DNA of 64,000 bases from Hexactinellida sp. DTS-2022 (lineage: Eukaryota > Porifera > Hexactinellida): assembly GCA_028753945.1 (NCBI GenBank), contig JAPNXP010000002.1, forward strand, positions 11,718,001-11,782,000, written 5' to 3'. The notes beneath the pieces were generated by a model. That model saw nothing but the letters and a program-made list of their open reading frames with translations. It had not been told where the DNA came from and did not search any database. A program made the position numbers and the translations under genes. Each line of letters begins with the position of its first letter. Within the stretch, counting starts at the first letter, position 1. Positions 11,170-28,734 of this stretch are shown here, in pieces.

Positions 11170-12258
11170 ATATACACGATCCATTCGATCTCTGACGAAA
11201 ATAATCAACAATTGATCAAAATGGTATTTAAATAGGGAAAATTTGAGACTTTTTAGCCTATCATCTCATTCGAGGGTACGTTTTATCGAATATTTTGATT
11301 CTCATACAACGAGCAACTATAATTATAAATCACGTGTGCAAAATGCTCGCAATACTCAACTTTATATACTTCCATAATACATTTTGTGCCCCGAAGACAT
11401 GCGAGAATTTTTGATGATTTAGAATTTTTATTTCTCCTGAACTATAAATCTAAATCTTAGCATTGTTGCATGATATTTTGAGACGCGTGAGATTCTGAGA
11501 CGCCTATGTGATACACTAAATACACCATGGATGTGCTATTACAAATTATACAGTGATATTTTGAGACGCTATAAAGGGAAATTTTTCGCTTATTTTTACT
11601 TTTTAATATGAATTTAAGAATAATATAATTTGATTCGCGTGAGATTTTGAGACATTGTATTACCAAACCATGCATGTGCTATTAGAAATTATACAGTGAT
11701 ATTTTGAGACGCGTGAGATTTTGAGACATTGTATTAGCAAACCATGGATGTGCTATTAGAATTTATACAGTGATATTTTGAGACACTACTATAAAAGTAA
11801 TTTTTGGCTTATTTTTACTTTTTATTATGAATTAAAGATTCTAACAATTTTGAGACGATAGTAAAGATAAACCAGAGACATAGATGTGCTATTTTGTATT
11901 CTTTTGAGACGCTGGTATATAACAATTTCTGAGTGAATACCTGTTTTGAACGTCTCACTATATGTTATATTCTATCTACAATAAGTATCCCTTTTAAATT
12001 AATTTAAATTACTGATAATTATAGCAACTTAAACGCCCAATTTCACATGTATATCTGATTTGACTAGTTTTCCTAATCTAATAATTTCCCAATTCACCAT
12101 ATGGTTATAATACTAACAATTGCAGAGACACAACTTTAATTAAGTAAAAACAAAAACAACTATTACAAACAAACAGAATAAACATACTAAATTAATATAA
12201 ATGAAAACTAATAATAAATACATAAACTAAATAAAAAAACACAACATTAAATAAATTA

Positions 12259-12486
12259 TTATAATATCCCCATCAAAACCCCCCTTCTCCTCCACAGCCT
12301 CCTCCTCCTGTCCTCCCTCCTCCTCCTCCTCCGGCTCATTCCCTCCCTCAGAAGTCCCCTCAGGGTTAGAATTTCACCCTCCTTCCAAAACAGTTTCTCC
12401 CGCCATCCCCTCCTCTCCCCTTCCCAAGACCTCCTCTCCCCTTCCCACTTTCTTAAATAAAACAGTAATAAATATAATAGTAACAT
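12259..12486 (-). CDS. Short Trp/Arg/Glu-rich ORF at the far end of Ginger A
   Basis: A low-complexity 75-codon frame with repeated WEGERR and runs of Arg and Glu. By position (minus strand, beyond the OTU gene, near the left terminus) it matches the coiled-coil ORFs of Ginger B at 22183-22443 and about 21387-21489, which share a W..E+..L++KIR-like pattern. The purine-rich strand could give such a frame by chance, so it may be only a composition effect. Function unknown. Confidence 0.25.
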   Translation of the reverse strand: MLLLYLLLFYLRKWEGERRSWEGERRGWREKLFWKEGEILTLRGLLREGMSRRRRRREDRRRRLWRRRGVLMGIL

Positions 12487-13171
12487 TTAAATTATGTAGC
12501 TTTGTTAGCTATTACTTATAGTTATTAAATTTTCATAGCCAACCTACGAAATTATAATACACAGTGTCAATTACGTCAATTGCCAACACATACCTTATCT
12601 GATTACGATTAACAAAATAATACAAACAAAATATTTCTAACAAACTTTGTTGTTACGAAATAAAACGATTTTTTAAAAATGTTTAAACCTTTATATTTCT
12701 CCTGAATTTCTATAATATATTCCTAGATTTCTGACGACTTATGGTTACTAGCCTACCAATATAATAGCTAAAAGAAATAATCACAACGATTAACTTATTT
12801 CTTAATGTATCATACTTAAACTTGGAGAATGTCTAGAAAGAGATATACATATATTTATAAGATCAGTAAAAGGTAAACTATTTTTTCAATCAGTTTTGAT
12901 TGTATTAACCTATTATTAATTTGGGGGCCTCCTCCTTTTCCCCACACAGCCGCCCTATCCTCTCCATTCATACAGTGGAAACCGCATAGCTATATCCATT
13001 CAATCGGCCCCAATTTTTAAGTTAATTAGCCTTCGTTCGTATGTGTGTAACAGAATGAGCATCGCATTGATGCGCCCTGATAATGCGGTTCCCAGTGTAC
13101 AAAAAAAACTCTCAAAGGAAAATAGGTTAAGTTACAGTAAATTACTCAAACTCTTAAATTAAACACTATTA

Positions 13172-13403
13172 CAGTGAACTCCAATTCGGATATAAATCGG
13201 CTTATAACAAAGTTCAATGGTCCGTACATCCTTATATTTGACTATACTATAATCAAATAAATTCATATATGTAATCTCTTTTTAACGAAGATATTTCTTA
13301 CCCCATAAATTTCTGAGTAATTAATTTTAATCTGCTTATAACAAATTAGGTGTATACAAATATTAAATCGATGTCCGCAATTCGTTATAACGGGAGTTCA
13401 CTG
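13172..13403 (+). mobile_element. TA-flanked MITE nested in Ginger A
   Basis: CAGTGAACTCC at the left and GGAGTTCACTG at the right, each next to TA (13170-13171, 13404-13405). GGATATAA and CGTTATAAC lie just inside the ends. Absent from Ginger B, so it entered A after the two diverged. A degenerate relative is at about 34038-34209. Confidence 0.8.
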
Positions 13404-13570
13404 TACTTAATAATATACGATGTAACAAAGTTACATCGTCTATGGTGGACTTACTAAATAGAAACTAATTAATTACTTAGTATAAAGTATATTAGTAGAT
13501 AATTAAAAATGTTAACTCACTTGATTCCACAGATAATTTACCTACATACTAGTCGTCAGTCTTTTGCATC

Positions 13571-13786
13571 CTAGATCGTAGATAACAGCTCGTCTTTCGC
13601 CACTGGGGATGTGCCGTTGCAGGTCACGTTTCCATAATCTGGGCTCACCATGATTGGGATTGCGTTGCCTGAATAACCTCGAGCAGAGGTCCCCACAAAG
13701 TTCGATGTACCTTGCCTTTGAGCGCTTTCGATAGAGTGTTGTGAGCTGTTATTCAATCGTTTGGACATCATCTGAAATAGTTCCAT
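13571..13786 (-). other. Conserved 3' ORF/tail of Ginger A
   Basis: After the OTU frame stops, a different frame stays open to 13571 and encodes SQHSIESAQRQGTSNFVGTS followed by about 40 more residues. The segment 13578-13754 differs from 23948-24124 of Ginger B at only about 6 of 177 positions, clearly fewer than the surrounding exons. It may be a separate exon, an alternative C-terminus or a constrained non-coding sequence. Confidence 0.5.
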
Positions 13787-16700
13787 ATGTCTTGTAATTC
13801 GTGATCAGCATTGATACGACAGGTTGATAGTGGTCGAAGTAGTTTTGGATATAAAGGATGGCTGTAGGCTTATCTGTGGCTCTGTGTAAACTCCAACGCA
13901 CCTCGCGAATTAATGAGTCTTTCGGTGTGTAGAAGTTATTGGCAACGTATACATCGGCATCAAGAATAGCAGAAGCAGCATAAATTTCCACATCTGTTCC
14001 CCAAATGGATTCACGATTCATAAGTCTTTGTGTGCTAAGGTATTCACACGGTGTCGTTCGTTTGGTTTTAAAATACCATCCTAGTTTCCTTGTTCCTTCA
14101 CTGGCGATAAAGCGAGAGATGATGGAACGAAGATGTAGGTGGCTGTTTTCACTCCCAGTAATTAATTTAATTTGGATATGCATCGAAATAGACAATTACC
14201 ATCTCCTTCGATATGTTCCGCATCGCAAGGTTCAAAATCGCTAAGTAACTTCCCAACGCTATTAAATGGTTGTCTACAAACTGATTCAAATGATATCCCC
14301 AACATATCGCATTTACTTCGCTGCCAATTTTCATCTATCACTGTGATCCTTGGGTCCATCGGTGTGTGGTAGGGATTACGAAGCGGAACTGCGTCGTGAA
14401 ATGATTCCCATAGCATTGTGTTTAGGTACTGCATTGCCTAAAATATTAACTTGTTTACGATTTAATAAATATAAGAATTTTTATAAATGTCACAACTTGC
14501 TTTGATATACTAAACAAACATACTAATTTAAATTGAATTGAGTTGTATGAGTGTATTGGTAGATAGTTTTGACTTACCAGGAAATACAGTACTTTGTGTG
14601 TGTATCTAGCACGTTGGGTATCTGTATAGCTGGGGTAGAGATCTGATGTCCATCCGAGTATAATCTCCATAATATCTCTCTTCTACAATAAATGGGTAAA
14701 ATGGTAATTTGTAGTTATCGTATGAATCATTGTTAATTAACTTACAACTTCCTCTTCTTTTCCGCCATCCAAATACTCGAATAACATCGTGTTGGGAGTG
14801 TAGCTGTGCGCTTTGTATAGCAAGTGGTCCAGCTCTTCATGTAGAGGAGTCATGAAGGTCTGCCCACGTATATTCTGCTTTAGGATTTCCTATCAAATGA
14901 GAACATTGTAATAAGAAAAATATTATGGAATGTTACAAATATTCTGGATTGACGTCAAGAGAAGGTGTAAAGCGAAAATAACAATGAGTGTCAATAAAGA
15001 TTACACTAAATGAATTAGACTATAGATGTGAAACGGGAAGCTTACTTTTAAGTTATTAAGGTGTTGAAATATAGATTCCGTAGAAAATCCGAAGAGATTC
15101 TGGTACATCTAAAAAAGGAATATTTTACTATTAACACTATTTTATATTTTAAATAACAACTCAATCACAATGATTTACCTGTGAGGTGTTGATTCCGATG
15201 CTAGTATCGAGGCTTACTTTCTTCTTAGTATTCTTGGGACTAGAGGATCTTTCGAAGTAAGGTCTTGTGATATGGATTGGAATCTTTTTGTCCTTCTTCG
15301 TTCCTAATTCTGTTTGAGAAATTATAACATGGCTTTCTGTTGATTTCGACACCGTGTAAGGCCCGAGATGTTTCGTTTGCTTCTTTGTTTTGGGCATGTG
15401 TTTTATTTTGGGCATGTTGGTATAGATGATCTTATCACCCTTCTTTAGAGGTGTACTAATTACAGAGATAATAATTATGGAAATAATTATTATCGAAGGA
15501 ATGAATCGAACTTTAGTAACAAGATAGACTGTGTGTTATGTATGAATTAAATATCGTCAGCAGTTCAACTAACCGACTAGTGTTAACTTTCTTATCATAT
15601 TGTATCTTCTGCTTGAGTTGTTCAAAACTGATGCAGTCCATAGCTGATTGCTGTGTTGAAGTTCGAGATTCATCAATATTGCTAACTGCTTCGAGGGGAT
15701 TATCAGGAGGTGGGCAAAATATGTCGTTTATACCTTCGATATCATCTAGTGGATCTGTGAGTTCTGAGAAAATCGATTCTTCCAAATCAAAGTCTTCCTC
15801 ATCGTTGGTATGCAGGTCGTTAATGGTGGACAAGAGATCTTGATGCCGGGACTCTCTTCCCCACATGACCTTGAATGGAGTTTGTCCGAGGGATCTTTTC
15901 TTGCAGGAGTTCATTGCAAGCACAGCTTGTTTGAGCAGTTTGGACCAATGATCCCCTATCTGACTCTCCATTTTAATCAGTTTTCTATATGGATAATACG
16001 TAAATTGGTCTTAAAATTATATTACAAAATACTAACTGTTTCAGAATCTTGTTGTGCGCTTCGACTAAGCCGTTAGCCATGGGGTGGTAAGCACGAGTGC
16101 TACGATTGTCGATACCCAATTTCTGGTTGAATTCCTTAAATATCTGTTAAATACAATAAATAAAAATACAATAAATAAATAAATACAAATAATAATACAT
16201 ACTATAATGTTAGTGTGTAAAATTAGATAATTATGATAATTATATAAGTTATTTAATTTTAATGAATGAATTAATTAATTAACACTAATCTAGCAAACAG
16301 TATTACATTATACTACTCACATTGCTTGTGAACTCTTTCCCCTGGTCGTGCTGGATAATATCAGGTAATCCCATATCGAGATAGATGTCCTTCAGATTCT
16401 GAATAACTTCTTGTGAAGTCTTGGTCTTGAGAGGGCGTACTGCAACATATTTGCTCAGGTAGCATACAGTGACTAGAACGTGTTTGTAGCCGTCTTCACT
16501 CTCAGGGAGGTCGCATATAAGGTCCATTCCTATATGTCTCCACGTTTTAGAAGGAGGTGGTATTGGTTGGAGTTTCTTTTGCGGTTGAGGTGGCAAGGCC
16601 GCTGTCATCTGACATATATGGCACGTCTTTACCTTAATAATATAAGAAAGCCATTACTAGTGTATAATTTAAGAAATATATTACAAGATAAAGTAATTTG

Positions 16701-17393
16701 AGAGTAGTTTAATTCAGCAGGCTTTATTACGCTAACGAGAAGTATATTGTAATTTTTTAACAGGAATAAAAATACTGTTCAAATAGTTTTGGTGACTTAG
16801 TATACATTAAGTTAGAATGCATCATATCCTTTGAAATGATTCAAAATTAAAATACCCCAATTGAATAATATAAATAAGAATGCTCAATTGAAACGAGATA
16901 GGTAGGTAAATCTTACAAGCTACGAACAAAATACAGAAGTGGTCCGGCCAATGACCGAACCACGTGCTACATAGGAAAGTATACCGGATAATTTAACTAA
17001 CATATTCTTTAACGTCTTGGGAAACGCCTGCCCATGTGTATCTTTGCTGAACTGAATGTAGGGTCGTATTTATTCCGGGATGACCGACTTCGTCATGGAA
17101 CTTCTCATAGATGCTGTCCAACTCAGACTGCAATGGAACTGCCAAATCTGTCTCTGTGCCTTCCAGTTTTACTCTCTAAAGGGAGAATTCAATTAAACCA
17201 TGGAATATATAAAATTGGTCTAGGGGAATAAGGAAGTCAATATTACCTTGAAAAGTCTGTTGGTATCTCCAATAAAATAGGAAGACAATCTTCTTTTGTA
17301 GTTCGATTTTGTCTGACGTGAAGCTTGAGATGCTTCAGGATATTTTTCTTCACGAAGAAAGTGAATGATTTCGTCATATTCATTTGGATTCAT
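13749..17393 (-). pseudogene. Ginger A integrase + OTU protein, OTU frame broken
   Basis: Same ten-exon structure as Ginger B. Exons: 17247-17393, 17002-17175, 16321-16632, 16037-16143, 15574-15984, 15179-15455, 15046-15108, 14746-14889, 14578-14682 and 13749-14437. Intron borders are GT...AG and phases match B. The integrase part appears open: HHCC finger (FHDEVGH ... CHIC), first Asp in GMDLICD, second in IIQHDQGKE, Glu in ANGLVEAHN with exactly 35 residues between the last two, and LGPYTV of the GPY/F module. In the last exon the OTU nucleophile motif GDGNCLFRC is present, but about five extra bases just after it (near 14160) cause a frameshift. The rest of the domain (TGSENSHLHLRS ... FDHYQPVVSM) is in another frame. 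The catalytic integrase could still be made as a truncated product. Confidence 0.82.
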
Positions 17394-17824
17394 TTCGAAA
17401 TAAGAATAGATTTGTTTGTTTGTTTGTTTGTTTGTTGTAAATGAATAAGACAATTAATGCATATATTAAATGTCTTATATAGTAAATTTGATAATAGTAT
17501 AGGGTTTATCTATACTATGATATGAAAATCATAGTATTTTTAATTAAATTCATAATAAAAAGTAAAAATAAGCCAAAATTTCCTTTTATAGTGTCTCAAA
17601 ATATCACTGTTTAATTTCTAATAGCACATCCATGGTTTGCTAATACAATGTCTCAAAATCTCACGCATCTCAAACTTAAATTAAATTCATAATAAAAAGT
17701 AAAAATAAGCCAAAATTTCCTTTTATAGCGTCTCAGAATATCACTGTATAATTTGTAATAGCACATCCATGGTTTGGTAATACAATGTCTCAGAATCTCA
17801 CGCGTCTCAGAATATCATGCAACA

Positions 17825-19139: not shown

Positions 19140-20930
19140 TTCAGTAGTGACTCGCCCTTTTTATAGAAAGTTTCATCATGGTCATGCTCATGAGTTGTGA
19201 TCAACGTATTTGATGCATGCTCTATTTTCGCAAATCCTTTACATCCTGAGTTTCTACTCAGTGTACCAAAGATAAGTAAAGTTTTCTGAATCTCGAAATT
19301 TTATGTATAGATATTCATCTGATTCATTGATAAGAGGGTTTTCCTTCAAAAATTATAAATTCCATTATTATCAATGAAACATATTGTTACGATTACAACT
19401 ATATATAAATAACCAAGAAACAATGGAGTTTCTGTCTTCTTTTCAAATAACATATAGTTTACAATTTGTCGAAACCTCTCACTAGTGTCATGTAGTTAAT
19501 TCACACTCAAATTAGAAAACATTGACCAAAATCTTAACGTTTTAAAACGTTGACCAAATTCCTAACGTTTTAAATACGTTGATCAAATTCCTATTTCGCG
19601 TTGACCAAATTCCGCGTTCCCAATTTTGGATGATATTTACAGTTATTTATTTATGTAATAAATATCTACAATACAGCGCAATAAAAATATTCAATAAAAC
19701 CCAATAACATAATTTCTTGGATTCTTGTATTTTAAATGATTTTGGGAGTGTTAGTGATAACTAATATCTACGGATGCCATCAAGTCCAAAGTATTTGCAA
19801 TTTTTGAAAAACTGAAGCCCAAATTTAATAAGTCTAGAATTAATACAGTTAGTGTGGGGGGACGAAACTTCGGGCGACGAAACATCCGCCATTTGTATTC
19901 CTATAGTGTTTTCTAACTGCAGATCAATTTCAATTAATTCTGAAACTTAAAATTTTAAACAGCAGCTATTTGAAGATTGATTTCGTCATCAAAATGTATT
20001 GCTAAGAATTCATGGTAATTCTTAATTAAATAACCAAAAGTATTGTAAGCTCGTGTATACTCAATATGCTTCTGATTTATTCAATTAAAGATTGTACAGT
20101 AAATACACTATGTTTACTATGCTCTTAAAGCACGAACTAATATTTATTGTATACTGTAGAGACTCCCAAAACGGACACTCCGAGAAGCGGACAACCCCTC
20201 TATAACGGACAACCCTCTTGGAACGGAATTAAATTACCATACATGTAATACTTAAGCAGTCCCCGAGAAGCGGACAACTCCGAATTCCGAACAACGGACA
20301 GGGAACTGGCCCCGAATGTGTGTCATAATACAAAATTTATTCCAAACAACGGACAATCAGAAACTACGCACAAAGATTTACATGGATATCACTAATTTAA
20401 CATGACAGGATGGCACCTAAACAATTCCAGGGCCTTTCTTAGTCTTTCAAGAATTCTTTCATCTTGTCAATATAAACTTTAGGTCCATGTAGGCGGTACA
20501 CACATGGGATTTCTAGTCCATAAGCTGCTCCTCTATTTACTTTCTCTCCCGAAACCTCAGCATATGCTTTGTTTACTTCTCTTCTCAAACATTGAGAAAA
20601 GCGTGGTGCGAAATTATATGGTACGTGTCCAGAGACGGATTAACGGACCCTGGGGCCCCGGGCGGTGAGTAAACTATGGGCCCTTTAACATACAATACTT
20701 TAAAATATCCACGAAAGAGCATATCCCAAGGTGAAAGTAAGTAATTATGCGCCTAGGGCGGCCATTTTGAAATTCTCAGATTGCTTTAGCACCTCATTAG
20801 TCTAGAATTTGGAATCATAAGTATGCTAGTTATTTCTTAGATACTTATAACCTTCTTATTTTTATCACAGTAAAATAACGATTTGAATAACGAATAACGA
20901 ATCGAATTGAATTGAATTTCTTCTATGAAC
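19140..20930. other. Intergenic with MITE debris
   Basis: About 20152-20370 contains AACGGACACTCC, AGAAGCGGACAAC and AACGGACA motifs of the TA-flanked family also seen at 49923-50109 and 28735-28812. About 20636-20690 (GACGGATTAACGGACCCTGGGGCCCCGGGC) is the end of a GC-rich hAT-type MITE. Around 19535-19620 are short repeats of GTTGACCAAATTCC. No gene recognised. Confidence 0.5.
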
Positions 20931-21062
20931 TGTTGTGTGGTATTTTGAGACGCTGTGGTATTTTGAGACGCCTATATGATACACTCTATACACCATGGAT
21001 GTGCTATTACAAATTAGACTGTGGTATTTTGAGACGCTGTGGTATTCTGAGGCGCAACTATA
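20931..21062 (+). repeat. Ginger B left terminal inverted repeat
   Basis: Identical, base for base as read, to the reverse complement of 28529-28660. Contains four TGAGACGC/TGAGGCGC motifs in two pairs, a likely integrase-binding arrangement (inference). Confidence 0.92.
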
Positions 21063-21386
21063 CAAGGCAAATTTTATCCACTCTAACTATAAGTTTACTG
21101 AACATTTAATGTTATACTAAATTATTAATTTAATAATTAAATTGTGAATTTGATACTTAGTATCCAATCTACTGTGGTATTTCGAGGCGCTGGTAGTGAA
21201 GAGAATTTTCCACTTTACAGATTAATTGTAATCCACTAGCTTTATTAAAAGAAGGTGTTTATTAATTAATACGTAGTAGCAACTCAACTTTATTTCATTA
21301 ATTGACACAACAAACATCTAAATAATAAAGTATACAAATTATTTTAGTTTCCAATGATATCCCTCCACTTCTCGGAACCCTCCAGC

Positions 21387-21489
21387 TAAGTCTCCATGTT
21401 TCGCAGTTTTCTACTCTTCTCCCTAATTTTTCTTTTCAAAGCATTTCTCTCATCCTGCCATACTCTTCTCTCATTCTTCAGGGATCCTC
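21387..21489 (-). CDS. Short basic coiled-coil ORF fragment in Ginger B
   Basis: Minus-strand frame reading LKNERRVWQDERNALKRKIR and ending KLRNMET-stop at 21387. It resembles the C-terminus of the 86-codon ORF at 22183-22443 (E-W-x-x-E+++LK+KIRKLK), so it may be a duplicated or second exon of an accessory coiled-coil protein. Start not determined. Confidence 0.3.
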
Positions 21490-22059
21490 TGCTCTTAATT
21501 AAAAGAATCAATTACTTAAAATTGTTCGACTGCATCTTGGCAGCTCGATCTGCTCTTCGGCTGATTCTGAATTTATTCTGTCAACGTCTCGTCCACATAA
21601 ATCATTGAAACCATCCTAATTCAATATTTCTAAACTGTAACCTATTTATAGTTTCTAAGTTTATACATCTTTGATCAAATAGAAAGACTCACGAAGTAAT
21701 CACGAATATCATGTGCATTGATCATTAAATTTGATGTAATCCGAACTAATAGCTTATATTCTTTAATCAAATTCCGGAATTAAATGGAATGCGTTAGTTA
21801 TTTATCACTTCCGATTACAAGAATGAGGAACTGGTTCCCAAAACGATTACTAACTTCGATATCTTGCAAATCTTAATTTTTTTCTATCTAAAGCATTTTG
21901 TTGGCTAAATATCATATTTATAATTCTTATAATTGAAAGATTTAACTCTCTAATCCACTTGCCTTAAAAAAGACAGGATCTAGTCAAGCTATAGGCATTT
22001 TCCCTTATAGATTAATTAATTAAAAAATACCATAAATTAAAATACTAGTAAAGCACAAC

Positions 22060-22142
22060 TTTATTTAATCTTATGAATTAACAAAAAACACATTACAAAA
22101 CTTTATTTAATCTTATGAATTAACAAAAAACACATTACAAAC
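22060..22142. repeat. Tandem duplication of a 41-bp unit
   Basis: ACTTTATTTAATCTTATGAATTAACAAAAAACACATTACAAA occurs twice in a row, without a change that I can see. Lies within Ginger B next to the coiled-coil ORF, on its 3' side. Confidence 0.8.
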
Positions 22143-22182
22143 TAAAGTCTAATACTCTTCTTCTAATTAAATAATTCTTTAC

Positions 22183-22443
22183 TTAATCTGAATCTATATC
22201 CCCCATTCGTATTATCGTTTGTTTTAATTTTCTGATTTTTTTTTTCAAATGCTTTTTTTCGATTTCCCATTCCGCCCTTTTCATATCTATATACGCTTTG
22301 TGTTCATCAATCATTTTGCATGTCTCTACCATCATGCTCATTTTTTTTTCTTCGTATTCTTTTTCCATCTGTTCAATTAATTGAATATAGTATCTATCTG
22401 AAGAATCATCCATTATAGCTGTAATTACTTTTGCATATTTCAT
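22183..22443 (-). CDS. 86-codon coiled-coil protein in Ginger B
   Basis: ATG at 22443. Very rich in Glu, Lys and Met with heptad-like spacing: QLIEQMEKEYEEKKMSMMVE, then EWEIEKKHLKKKIRKLKQ. Predicted to be one long alpha-helix or coiled coil. It lies downstream of the integrase/OTU gene on the same strand. Such regions often form the C-terminus of Myb/SANT- or zinc-finger-type accessory proteins in DNA transposons, but no DNA-binding part is visible here. Function unknown; a regulatory partner of the integrase is a guess. Confidence 0.45.
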   Translation of the reverse strand: MKYAKVITAIMDDSSDRYYIQLIEQMEKEYEEKKMSMMVETCKMIDEHKAYIDMKRAEWEIEKKHLKKKIRKLKQTIIRMGDIDSD

Positions 22444-22504
22444 GTGGTATTTATAGTTGTAAGTTGTAAATCATTGTAGCACAAAACTGAGTCATGAAAC
22501 ATTA

Positions 22505-22685
22505 AAAACGTAATTTGGGCCAAGTGCACACATTGTGGAAGCTTATGAAACTTGTGTAATTTGCGCCAAGTGCACACATTGTGGAAGCTTATGAAACTTG
22601 TGTAATTTGCGCCAAGTGCACACATTGTGGAAGCTTATGAAACTTGTGTAATTTGCGCCAAGTGCACACATTGTGGAAGCTTAAA
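22505..22685. repeat. 46-bp minisatellite, four copies
   Basis: Unit CTTGTGTAATTTGCGCCAAG + TGCACACATTGTGGAAGCTT + ATGAAA, phase positions 22551, 22597 and 22643, plus a diverged first copy from about 22509. Inside Ginger B; not present in A. The unit contains AAGCTT and GTGCAC palindromes. Confidence 0.85.
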
Positions 22686-23652
22686 ATACTTCCTAAGTAA
22701 CACGATATCTAATTTATCTAACTACTAGTTTATTATCTTATTTCTCCACTTTATTTGGCTACAATACATACCTTATTACTCCCTGATTATATTTTTGATT
22801 ATAAAAATTATGTCTAACTAAAAGCAAATTATATTAAAAATTTACTTTTATCACCCTGTTATTAAGATTAGCCACTATTATGCATTGATATCTTTTATTA
22901 ATAAATTTAATGGGAAATATCAGAGTAACAGTTTCAGAAAGATGTTATAAATATACCACATAACTAACGTGTAAAGGATATAAACTAATCCATCAAAATA
23001 CACAAATTCAGGACGGGAACTACTTGTTCTGGCTTGTACAATGTTCAGGCTCGATTCTTCTCGCAGAGTAATAAGATAAAATGTCTTGATAACTGCCTGT
23101 TAGTAAGCTATATGGAAAGATAATTGATTATGCTGTGCGCTGTGAAGTAGTGTTAATTAATTAATTAATTAATGAATAAATAGTAGGTTGGTCCCTCAGG
23201 GCTGCAGCTAGCTACTAAAGAGTAGTTTCGCTGTGAGTGTACTTGGAACACACTCTGTACCTTTCCCCAACCGCGAGCCTAACGGTTGAGGGATGTCAAG
23301 AGCTTACCTGAGAACACCTAACTTATCTCTTGACACCATTAGCGGGACCTAGGCTCAGGACAATTTACCCATTACATGAGACTGAGGGTTTTTATTAAAC
23401 AGAAGGTTTAATAAAAACTATGATAAGTTATCACAACGAAAGTTTTAACTTAGCTAACTGAAAGGAATGGAAATTTTGGCTAGTTATTATCTCAGTATTC
23501 CACAACAACAACCAAATTATAGCCAGACATATGTACTGAAATTAGATACTCTTTTTTATGGCATACGACAGCGCTATATAACAATTATTAATTAATATCG
23601 TTTCTAGCTGCTGTACCTAGTGTAGTATTAGTAAATTAATTATTATTTCTTT

Positions 23653-24121
23653 TTAATTAAAAACCAGTTTGTTTGTAAATTGTTCTAATTTCCTATTATA
23701 ATTTAATCGAGAGTTCGCTATATGTTTATGAAACTGGATAAACGGAAGAATTGGCATGGGAAATTTTGTTGATCTAGTTCCAGGTATTATGAAGAACCCT
23801 AAGAAGGCGAGGCGGTTTCCAATGTACCTAAAACTTAAAAGAAATAAACGCAAACAATATTAACTACAATTAAAAAAATAACTTTAAAACTCACTTGATT
23901 CCATAGGTATCTCACTTACCTATTTGTTGTCATCTTTTATTTACCTTGTAGATAACAGCTCGTCTCTCGCCACTGGGGATGTGCCGTTGCAGGTCACGTT
24001 TCCATTATCTGGGCTCACCATGATAGGGATTGCGTTGCCTGAATAACCTCGAGCAGAGGTCCCCACAAAGTTCGATGTACCTTGTCTTTGAGCGCTTTCG
24101 AAAGAGTGTTGTGAGTTGTTA
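23653..24121 (-). other. Conserved 3' tail and possible extra exon of Ginger B
   Basis: Downstream of the OTU stop codon a different frame encodes NNSQHSFESAQRQGTSNFVG and continues to DELLST (23948-24124), about 97% identical to Ginger A at the DNA level. It can be spliced at ACAAG|GTAAATAA (23943) to an AG acceptor before 23838, which joins in phase to a 61-codon frame ending at 23653 (YIGNRLAFLGFFIIPGTRST ...). This would make a second small gene or an alternative C-terminus. The upstream start is not found. Confidence 0.4.
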
Positions 24122-27100
24122 TTACACTGTTAGGACTTCATCTGTTGTAGTTCCATACGTCGGGATAGAAGATTTCAGCATTGATACAACAGGTTCATAA
24201 TGTAGGACGAAATTTTTGATGTAAAGATTGGCAGTCGGGCTGTTAGTAGATCTGAGCAAGCTCCAACGCACATGACGAATTACAGACTCTGGCATTCTAT
24301 AATCGTTGTTAGCAACGTAGATATCGGCATTCAGAATAGCAGAAGCAGCCATAATTTCAACATCACTTCCCCAAATGGATTCACGATAGATAGCGTTTTC
24401 GTGTGTGAGGTAATGACACGGTGTTGTTTGCTTTGATTTAAAATACCATCCAAGTTTTGTTGTCCCTTCACTGGCTATAAATCGGCATATAATGGAACGA
24501 AGCTGTAGGTGGCTGTTTTCACTCCCAGTAATTATTTTGGAGAGACATCTGAAGAGACAATTACCATCTCCTTTGATTTTCTCTGTCAGCTCTGGTTCGT
24601 ATTTGCTTAGTGGCTGTCCAACGAGATCCGATGGTTGCTTGCTAACTGAATCAAATGTTATCCCCAAGAGAACACATTTACTACGCTGCCAATTCTCATC
24701 TATAACAATAATTTTTGGGTCATCCGGATAGGCATCTGTAATAACGGTTTGATCTTTTTCGTCGAACGTGTCCCATAGCATTGTATTGAGATACTCCATC
24801 GCCTAATAAAGGTATATAGGAATCATTAAGTATAATAAAATTATACAATTAATTAGAGCATCCATATAAGGTATCTCAATAATATTGTGTAGAATACTTA
24901 CCACGAAATACAGTATTTTGTGTGTATGTCTAGCACGCTCATTATCTGTAAAACTAGGATAAATATCTGGTGTCCATTCCATTACAGTCTCAATTATGTC
25001 TCTCTTCTACAGATATATAAATACAATGGATAGAAGTTGTGTTTAACTAATCTAAAATTTTCTAATTTATACTCGGTTAGACTTACAATTTTATCTTCTT
25101 TTTCACCATTCAAAAACTGAAATAAATAGGTGTTGGGAGTATAGATGTGTTGTTTGTTTAAGCTTCTGTACAATTTCTCATGTAAAGGAGTCGCGAAGGT
25201 TCCTTGGAGAATATTCTGTTTTAGAATTTCCTAGAAATTCAAAAAAATGATGAAGTAATCATTATTGCCTGGAAGTTTATGAGATAACTGAAATTGACAT
25301 CAATTGGAGAAGTAAATTATAAAATAACAATGACTTCTCAACAATAATTCAGGAATGTAAAGAGAATGGAATCCTTACTTTGAAAGTAGTTAGATGTGTA
25401 AATATAGATACTGCTGTAAATCCATAGAGATTCAGGCAAGTCTAAAATTGAATATTTTCAATTAAATTGACACTAATTTCTAATTATGTATGATTTGATC
25501 AATAGTACCTGTGATGTGTCGACACCTATGCTCGAATCGAGGTTTACTTTCTTCTTAGTGTTTCTTACAAAATAAGGACGTGTGATATGGATTGGAATTT
25601 TCTTGTCTTTTTTGGCTCCTAATTCTGTCTGAGAAATAGTAACATGACTATCTGTTACTTTCGACACCGTGTAAGGCCCAATATATTTTGATTGCTTCTT
25701 CGTTTTGGGTAAGTGTTTTATCTTTGGCATGTTAGTGTATATGATCTTATCATCCATCTTCAGAGAGGCACTACAGATGTCATAATGATAATAAAATGTG
25801 AGTAAGAAAACATTGTTGAATATATAAAGCTCAACTAACCGTCCTTCGTTGACCTTCTTATCATACTGCATCTTCTGTTTTATTTGCTCAAAGTTGATAC
25901 TATCCATTGCTGATTGCTGTGTAGAAGTACGAGATTCATCAATACTAGTAACTTCTTCTTGGGGAATGTCAAGTGGTGGAGAAAAGATGTCTGATATTTC
26001 TTCAATATCATCGAGTGGAGGAATGAATTCGCTCATAATAGCATCGTCTATTGCAAAATCTTCTTCAGTGTTGCACTGCAGGTTGTTAATGGTCGATAGA
26101 AGATCTTGATGCCTGGACTCTCTTCCCCACATAACCTTGAATGGAGTTTGTCCATGGGACCTTTTAAAGGTAGAATTCATTGTTATTGCAGCAGCTTTTA
26201 GAAGATTTGTCCAATGATCCCCAGTCTGGATCTCCATTTTGTTCAGTTTACTAAAAAAGAACTTTCATAGTTGGTATATTATCCTAAATCATGCATTCGA
26301 AATGTTGTTATCATTTACTAGTTAACTAATAACACTACCTTTTGAGAATCTTATTGTGTGCTTCGACTAAACCGTTAGCCATCGGGTGGTATGCACGAGT
26401 GCTACGATTTTCAACTCCTAATTTCCGGTGAAATTCCTGAAATATCTATGAATAATACAAGCAAAATTACAATCGAATACGTACTAATATTATAAAAAAT
26501 ACATATTTAGCAATATGTCACTGATAATATTTGATTAGAATGTAGAAAAATGATTATGCAACTCACATTACTTGTAAACTCCCTTCCTTGGTCGTGCTGA
26601 ATAATATCGGGTAATCCCATATCGAGGTAGATATCCTCAAGATTCTGGATTACTTCTTCTGATGTCTTCGACTTGAGAGCGCGCACTGCAACGTATTTGC
26701 TCAGATAACAAACAGTGACTAAAATGTGTTTATATCCATCTTTGCTCTCAGAGAAATCACATATAAGGTCCATCCCTATATGTTTCCACGTTTTAGATGG
26801 AGGTGGAATTGGTTGGAGCTTCTTTTGCGGCTGTGGTGGCAAGGCAGCTGTCATCTGACATGTATGGCAAGTTTTTACCTTTAGTATACAAGAAAGTAAT
26901 TATAATATGGCATTTTTTAATAATTTTGTATTAGTTACAGCATCGATATCTAATTACACCATTATATAAAATTCGTAAATGGTTGATTAAAGTTAACTGA
27001 ACATTATAAAAATAAATATAAAAACAATTTGGGATCTTGCGAAATCATGTTAGTTGCTATTAGTCGTCAAAATAAAATGCTTTACTAATTAGACAATCTA

Positions 27101-28412
27101 GAACTTAATAATTACGATTACAGCACATGGATGATTCAACTGAAATGTTCCACTAACACTGCATTCTAATGCTATTTTGGGATGTACGTACATCAATTAG
27201 AATAGAAATATAATAGAACTCGATTAAGGCGTACCAGCCTTGGGAAACAAGACAAAGTACGTACTAACGGAAGGCATGTCGAAATCCGTATGCATAATCC
27301 ACAGGTCGAAATGCTGACTTGTTGAATTGTGTAAATACGATGTAAAGGGTATACAGTCTTCAAACATACTCAACGATAATATAAAAGTATTTTGGTTGTC
27401 ACGTACTCAGACAATCAAAACACTAACGAAGTTCTGCTGACAATTTTCTAAGAGTACATACTAGCAGAATTTAGTTGGGAATAGAAATTGGTACGTCTGA
27501 TTCGAGTATGTACTGAATTGATAATTGCAATGCAATTTACCCAGTAATTGTAAAATAAATCAAATGAATATATCTACATAACATTACAAATTGATTTTAA
27601 TTGAAAATAAATCGAACTAATAGTAGGTTAAGGGATAATTATATAATTATATAATCGTTAGGAAATAGGGAAATTTTTCGTACAGAAGTCAAAGATTAGA
27701 TTGGTTGAAGTTGCAAAATGAGGACCAGGGTGATCCAGTTGGCTATAATTTGAAAAGTAACTACTTTTTCCTATTTTGAGTAGATAAGTTACCCTTATTA
27801 ATTAAGCAATTTTAATTCGAAAGACATCAAATACAAATTGTTCAAATAAATTTCATTATCATATTAACTTACATAATCTCGAACGTCAATGTGCATGCCT
27901 GTCCATGTGTATCTTTGCTGAACTGAATGAAGAGTGGCGTGAATCCCTGGATGACCAACTTGGTCATGGAACCTTTGATAAATATCATCCAACTGAGACT
28001 TCAATGGAACTTCCAAATCTGTTTCTGTACCTCCCAGTTTAACTCTCTAAGGAGAAGATTAATTAAAAGTATTAAATCAAATATAGTAGAACCTGCTAAG
28101 TAATAAGGACCAGGAAAGGACAGGGCAAAATGGCCGTTATAGACAAGTAACCGTTATGCAGTGGCTGTTAATTAAAGAGGATCTACTGTATTTTTAATTA
28201 ATATATAAATAATGGGATTATTTATTAGTATAGCGAGTCATTTTTGGGGTTAAAAAAAATCTCACCTTGAATAGTGTGTCGGATTCTGCAATGAAATAGG
28301 AGGACAGTTTTCTTTTGTAATTCCATCTTGTTTGCCGTGAGTCTTGTACTGTCTCAGGATATTTTTGTTCGCGAAGAAACTGAATAATTTCTTGATACTC
28401 GTCTGAATTCAT
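24122..28412 (-). CDS. Ginger B integrase-OTU fusion protein, 801 aa, ten exons
   Basis: Cut-and-paste integrase with a deubiquitinase-like tail. Predicted exons: 28266-28412, 27873-28046, 26567-26878, 26339-26445, 25840-26250, 25509-25770, 25379-25441, 25087-25230, 24902-25006 and 24122-24802. All introns have GT...AG ends, and the phases add up to one open frame of 802 codons including stop. Residue landmarks: HHCC zinc finger H76, H81, C111, C114; catalytic D144 (GMDLICD), D203 (IIQHDQGRE) and E239 (ANGLVEAHN), with exactly 35 residues between D203 and E239; GPY/F module at 415-417 (IGPYTV); OTU domain about 648-790 with D654/C657 (KGDGNCLFRC) and H776 (FVLHYEPVV). The start is chosen at MNSDEYQE because element A conserves it; an upstream in-frame ATG at 28505 would add 31 low-complexity residues. 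Closest relatives by memory are KRBA2-like/Ginger integrases. Confidence 0.88.
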
Positions 28413-28528
28413 TTGAAAATCAGAATAGAAATGATTGATTATTTGGTTTGGTTTGATTAGTTTGTTTGATTGATTGATTGATTGTGTTGTGATAGTTGTA
28501 GACAAGCAGAGTAATATAATTTACCTTA

Positions 28529-28660
28529 TATAGTTGCGCCTCAGAATACCACAGCGTCTCAAAATACCACAGTCTAATTTGTAATAGCACATCCATGGTG
28601 TATAGAGTGTATCATATAGGCGTCTCAAAATACCACAGCGTCTCAAAATACCACACAACA
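28529..28660 (-). repeat. Ginger B right terminal inverted repeat
   Basis: Exact reverse complement of 20931-21062. It is next to the 5' end of the integrase gene (first ATG about 120 bp inside), so this repeat probably also holds the promoter (inference). Confidence 0.92.
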
Positions 28661-28734
28661 GAACTATTCAACCTTAATAAATGTAAAACTGCATTTTAAA
28701 TTATGTATATTGTGTGATATGATAAAATTATGGA

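Follow-up and report, generated by a model that had tools for sequence, protein, structure and literature searches.

A window of 64,000 nucleotides (the whole stretch of DNA analyzed) from contig JAPNXP010000002.1 of Hexactinellida sp. DTS-2022 contains a complete DNA transposon at positions 20931-28660, which is very probably an autonomous, OTU-type, Ginger-like cut-and-paste element that has moved recently. Fusion of an OTU protease domain to a Ginger transposase is a known arrangement, found for example in Ginger1-1_HM and in an Aplysia family (Bao et al. 2010, PMC2836005). The window element has a different target and, behind its transposase gene, an unexplained conserved block of 136 bp.

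The element begins with TGTTG, ends with CAACA, and is bordered on either side by GAAC (20927-20930 and 28661-28664). The same 4 bp are present at both ends, and the initial annotation was thus right to call this target site duplication perfect. The terminal inverted repeats (left, 20931-21077, plus strand; right, 28514-28660, minus strand) agree at 144 of 147 positions. Their outermost 132 bases are the same in both arms, matching the length of identical repeat first reported, and complementarity of the arms is 98% across 148 nt. Two tandem 18-bp units, TGTGGTATTTTGAGACGC, lie within the left repeat (20936-20971, plus strand), a second and less exact pair is found at 21019-21055, and mirror pairs occupy 28536-28572 and 28620-28655. 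These units are candidate transposase binding sites. Three other copies (L029, L030, and L036) have complete ends and perfect duplications, with one terminal repeat short of one 18-bp unit.

The transposase gene occupies the minus strand, and its start lies about 100 bp from the inner edge of the right inverted repeat. Ten predicted exons, separated by nine GT-AG introns, close into one frame of 801 residues, as had been proposed. Exon 1 (28266-28412) contains the start codon and a KYP...SSYF...LF region; exon 2 (27873-28046) encodes H76 and H81 of the H2C2 finger; exon 3 (26567-26878) encodes C111, C114, and the catalytic residues D144 and D203; and exon 4 (26339-26445) encodes the catalytic E239. 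Exon 5 (25840-26250) precedes exon 6 (25509-25770), which carries the GPY/F motif, and exons 7 (25379-25441), 8 (25087-25230), and 9 (24902-25006) lead to exon 10 (24122-24802), which encodes the OTU domain and the stop codon. An alternative acceptor for exon 4, giving 798 residues, was set aside; we chose the ATAG acceptor at 26446, which lengthens the protein by three residues and restores the spacing D203-x35-E239.

The predicted gene model is not a chance reading, because the exons of a sibling element in the same window (11464-17824, minus strand) align with it at higher identity than the introns do. Nucleotide identity between the two elements, gaps excluded, was 69-86% for the ten exons and 52-72% for the introns. 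Splice sites are mostly shared, and the exon 4 donor falls within an alignment gap. The two coding sequences differ by 0.18 replacement substitutions per replacement site (dN) and 0.84 silent substitutions per silent site (dS). Within the family of the window element, seven intact copies showed 51 synonymous and 53 replacement changes relative to the window copy when pooled, compared with a neutral expectation of 1:3.56 (ratio of about 0.29), these seven comparisons sharing ancestry. This excess of silent changes supports the spliced reading frame.

All of the protein motifs listed in the initial annotation were located in the 801-residue product: an HHCC finger (H76-x4-H81-x29-C111-x2-C114), a D-D-35-E integrase core (D144, D203, and E239), GPY at residues 415-417, and an OTU triad consisting of D654 and C657 in the box GDGNC (653-657) together with H776. 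Its identification as a Ginger-type integrase-OTU fusion is borne out by Pfam, where Integrase_H2C2 (5e-18), rve (2e-10), and OTU (4.5e-9) all scored over the cut-off. The solved structures closest to the integrase were PFV integrase (E 5e-23) and Ty3 (E 3e-19), and a search for viral relatives of exon 3 found none. The KYP...SSYF...LF region of exon 1, which is also kept in the sibling, resembles YPYY by eye.

Homology to integrases would also be expected if the sequence were a remnant of a Gypsy or other long terminal repeat element or of a Polinton, or a domesticated integrase gene. These origins are extremely improbable, given terminal repeats that are inverted rather than direct and accompanied by 4-bp duplications at 22 loci, the many copies, the existence of related empty sites, and a scan of seven open frames that turned up no further retroelement domain. 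The element shares a zinc finger and a DDE core with Gypsy and retroviral integrases such as those of PFV and Ty3; unlike those elements, it has an OTU tail and no long terminal repeats, and no reverse transcriptase was found. Gin-1, Gin-2, and Imagin, host genes derived from Ginger1, are likewise multi-exon integrase-like genes (PMC2836005; PMC12863088). Imagin occurs as a single copy in which the catalytic DDE and the inverted repeats have been lost, whereas the window element has many copies and retains the triad.

The OTU protease is probably functional, because the D-x-x-C and His residues are kept in all six aligned OTU sequences, which represent three families and range down to 48% identity. 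We take D654, C657, and H776 to be catalytic by analogy with known OTU enzymes. The OTU exon matched the solved structures of OTUD1, OTUD3, and OTUD5 (E 2e-4 to 1e-3). Between the window element and its sibling, the OTU domain has changed faster than the integrase core (dN 0.23 versus 0.10) and more slowly than silent sites (0.72). That the domain protects the integrase from ubiquitin-dependent turnover may be correct, and is one of several proposals; Bao et al. (2010, PMC2836005) offer as one possibility an influence on DNA repair following transposition.

Copies of the element are numerous and little diverged. A genome search with the terminal inverted repeat gave 450 candidates, 40 of which were scored and had 97-100% identity over 143-147 of 147 bases. 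A 21-bp terminal pattern, allowing at most one mismatch, occurred 87 times in the genome, and its reversed control did not occur at all. Over 7730 alignment columns, 23 mismatches and 93 gap positions separate the full-length copy L009 from the window copy. Among 26 other copies, seven retain 2406 of 2406 coding bases, with no stop codon, no frameshift, and nine of nine introns; the remaining 19 are incomplete, damaged, or without a splice site. The search suggested in the initial annotation for copies bordered by different 4-bp duplications did find them, some being more than 98% identical over their full length.

Empty sites, which the initial annotation had proposed to look for in other individuals, were found as related sequences within the same genome for two copies. 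The window copy is nested in a host repeat, and its joined flanks match uninterrupted sequence elsewhere, the best match being 97% over 345 bases (query 20-362). The joined flanks of copy L026 match 100% over 215 bases (query 38-252) across the junction. Since these related empty sites span the junctions, the element was evidently inserted into existing copies of a repeat, duplicating 4 bp. Three copies (L015, L018-L019, and L026) are inserted at one and the same point of a host repeat that is nearly palindromic (GAGAGACCTACTAGTCTC and variants), which may reflect a preference of the element for this repeat or for the GNNC at its centre.

A recent insertion of the window element is supported by near-identical full-length copies, the seven intact coding sequences, and the related empty sites. 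The suggestion that the element may still be mobile is supported: the intact copies and empty sites fit it, and mobility today is likely. Deletion derivatives with intact ends form two look-alike pairs at loci with unrelated flanks, L012 (GGTC) with L030 (GGCC) and L017 (GAGC) with L034 (GCTC); they were apparently spread by transposase supplied from elsewhere. Two facing terminal patterns 381 bp apart (G000:C11:14497003-14497383) are likely a miniature derivative.

Target site duplications were surveyed in 27 copies, including the window copy, 23 of which had both ends covered. Perfect 4-bp duplications flanked 22 of these 23; the exception was L016 (GTCC and GCCC). All 22 perfect duplications fit GNNC, a pattern that makes up 2.8% of the 4-mers in the window. 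Nineteen of them comprised GGTC and GAAC (five each), GACC (four), and GATC, GGCC, GAGC, GTAC, and GCTC (one each), and the three further copies L029, L030, and L036 had GACC, GGCC, and GAGC between them. The base preceding the duplication was A in 35 of 38 cases when both strands of the 19 duplications were counted. Five ends without a partner (in L023, L025, L028, and L033), which lie outside this count, adjoin GGCC, GGCT, GAAC, GGTC, and GATC.

This target separates the element from Ginger1, for which Bao et al. (PMC2836005) give CCGG in 75% and CCGT/ACGG in 24% of cases; neither was found among the 22 perfect duplications. The two have in common an integrase-like transposase with H2C2, DDE, and GPY/F motifs followed by a C-terminal OTU domain, 4-bp duplications, TGTNR ends (here TGTTG), and inverted repeats of 40-270 bp. 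They differ in target, in intron number (nine here versus 0-4), and in length (7.7 kb here versus 2.6-7.1 kb). We regard the element as a Ginger-like variant rather than Ginger1 in the strict sense because its target is not the one that defines Ginger1. Judging from the GNNC target, CCGG does not seem to be an invariant feature of OTU-type Ginger elements. Ginger2/Tdd elements also combine an integrase-like transposase with inverted repeats and 4-bp duplications (5 bp for TDD-4 and TDD-5), but they are described as having neither GPY/F nor YPYY and as preferring RTATAY, whereas the window element has GPY and GNNC (PMC2836005).

The conserved block lies 3' of the transposase stop codon (23967-24102, minus strand) and was delimited by alignment between families. 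The sibling element, located 3.1 kb from the window element, represents a second family; it has inverted repeats and the same exon layout, but its OTU exon is frameshifted and its target duplication is imperfect (GCAT/GCAC). Its copy of the block (13597-13732, minus strand) is identical at 132 of 136 positions (97%). Across four 40-bp steps just past the stop codon, the two elements share 154 of 160 bases, compared with 72% in the OTU exon. In a third family, L048, OTU identity to the window element is down to 48%, yet the block again differs from the window copy at four positions, and the similarity starts and stops sharply. Another candidate family, L045, was rejected as a fourth, being a damaged copy of the sibling family. 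In the 112-Mb genome, searches with the integrase exon and the OTU exon gave 920 and 885 first-look candidates, respectively, of which 150 each were scored, pointing to a rich swarm of Ginger families.

Parts of the block recur widely in this genome behind OTU exons. A 29-bp part was found at 177 sites with at most three mismatches and a 26-bp part at 209 sites; neither reversed pattern was found. These sites were compared with exon lists that cover 150 of 778-920 candidates each. Among 100 listed sites of the 29-bp pattern, 83 follow a listed OTU exon in the correct orientation at a distance of no more than 700 bp. For the exact 26-mer, 60 of 100 listed sites lie at most 500 bp behind an OTU exon, and none has the wrong orientation or side. 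The adjoining exon is often highly diverged, with identity to the window exon of 60% or less, and as low as 44%, at 19 of the 60 sites; two of these 19 values are placeholders (the exon was found only with the L048 query), and roughly half of the 19 are damaged or partial exons, whose identity is lowered for that reason. The clean cases are eight exons with 44-55% identity that run for at least 190 of 226 residues without a stop codon beside an exact 26-mer. Of the 40 other 26-mer sites, seven are in register with an integrase exon located 2.3-5.3 kb ahead of them, with no wrong arrangement; exon identity is 59-61% in six and 83% in one. Only this narrow limit is informative, since extending it to 10 kb gave eight in register and three in a wrong arrangement. 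Ten 29-bp sites were picked from loci that are not known copies of the window family, and each had Ginger OTU sequence upstream, one of them just a short piece.

Variation within the window family (17 copies with the block) was ordinary: 15 of 136 block positions were variable, as were 220 of 1885 in introns and 62 of 681 in exon 10. Conservation of the block therefore does not come from a lack of mutation. At sites invariant within the family, the block had 3 differences between families, whereas exon 10 had 168 and introns 373 (Fisher p 3e-6 and 1e-4, respectively). Given normal variation within the family, the block is either constrained or exchanged between families. No exact block matches were found in viral and bacterial/archaeal collections. 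We found no published description of it in the literature searched, and the available portions of PMC2836005 do not mention it.

The block could be a coding exon for an alternative C-terminus. Its frame ESAQRQGTSNFVGTSARG... is open across the window, sibling, and L048 families, with stops in at least one family in each of the other two frames, and 18 of 43 variable sites fall at third positions of the open frame (14 and 11 elsewhere), a slight excess. Silent positions, however, are almost as frozen as the rest, no conserved donor or acceptor linking the block to exon 10 was seen by eye, and Pfam gave nothing above cut-off (best E 0.059), which makes this hardly probable. A structured RNA, such as a ribozyme or a retention element, is also improbable. 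Imperfect hairpins can be drawn, the GC content is 52% versus 34% in the window, and columns 78 and 97 covary by eye between the window and sibling elements, outside the consensus fold. Folding energies, on the other hand, were no better than those of shuffled sequences (z 0.05, -0.48, -1.14, and 0.66), none of 33 consensus pairs was preserved through a double change, and Rfam gave nothing near its cut-off. The sole Rfam match up to E 5 was RFPL3-AS1_2 (15.4 bits versus a cut-off of 40), which at most overlaps the block edge and was taken as chance. A tRNA was rejected, none being detected.

Two explanations are left: the block has a function in the transposase message or its expression, or it is exchanged between families. 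Under exchange or homogenization, by gene conversion or template switching in gap repair, the blocks would be nearly identical irrespective of any need for each base. Many block copies coexist in one genome (177 and 209 sites, as above), and variants are common to blocks across families (G at column 18 and T at column 122). Set against this, the edges of the block are sharp and it lies behind the OTU exon in the loci read, the adjoining upstream exon has not been homogenized, and the exact 26-mer is also found behind the six integrase exons of just 59-61% identity. We consider exchange rather doubtful.

The block does not appear to be a required cis element for transposition, because two kinds of block-less derivative are each present at two loci with perfect duplications. 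Since gene-bearing families keep the block and block-less deletion derivatives have moved, the favoured reading, which we put forward tentatively, is that the block works within the transposase transcript or influences its expression. With somewhat more reserve, the block could be a non-coding nucleic-acid element constrained at every base, which many Ginger families have retained behind their transposase genes beyond synonymous saturation and which is needed for transposase expression or for preference of the transposase for its own message. It would then be a DNA-transposon counterpart of the highly conserved domains of short interspersed elements (SINEs), such as V, which are likewise short mobile-element stretches evolving far more slowly than their surroundings. 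The present block differs in lying behind a DNA-transposon transposase gene, and the two are likened by description (PMC6887750) and not by sequence.

Other features of the window element include a 46-bp tandem repeat of 3.8 copies (22510-22683). Copy L009 falls 93 bp short of the window copy, a deficit close in size to two such units. An open reading frame of 86 aa at 22443-22186 was rejected as a second gene, with replacement changes exceeding silent ones among copies and frequent frameshifts; its product gave no Pfam family above cut-off, and its region does not align with the sibling element. In more distant families, no Ulp1 match was seen between the integrase exon and the block at the sites compared by eye, a comparison that was not systematic. 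OTU sequences are also present in long open frames of up to 1890 residues, which may belong to other elements.

Taken together, the data suggest the following mechanism. The spliced 801-residue protein would bind the inverted repeats, and its D-D-35-E core, judging from homology to integrases, would join the element ends to target DNA. Insertion at A|GNNC|T sites would generate the 4-bp duplications; the anatomy of the element and its target are observed. The OTU domain, with its conserved catalytic residues, would probably deubiquitinate the transposase or host repair proteins, and the 136-bp block, of observed position and conservation, may act in the transposase transcript or on its expression. 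Several observations weigh against this picture: the Pfam OTU match spans only positions 1-89 of the 128 in the profile, one of the five partnerless ends adjoins GGCT rather than GNNC, and 33 of the 100 listed exact 26-mer sites are not tied to listed Ginger exons. The last of these is attributable to the exon lists, which stop at 150 of 778-920 candidates.

Why transposases carry ubiquitin proteases is a question that dates from 2010, and this genome, in which several OTU-Ginger copies are intact and have hardly diverged, offers a practical testbed for it. Non-coding DNA that outlasts the adjoining protease domain points to dependence of the transposon on a slowly changing partner, whether of the host or its own.

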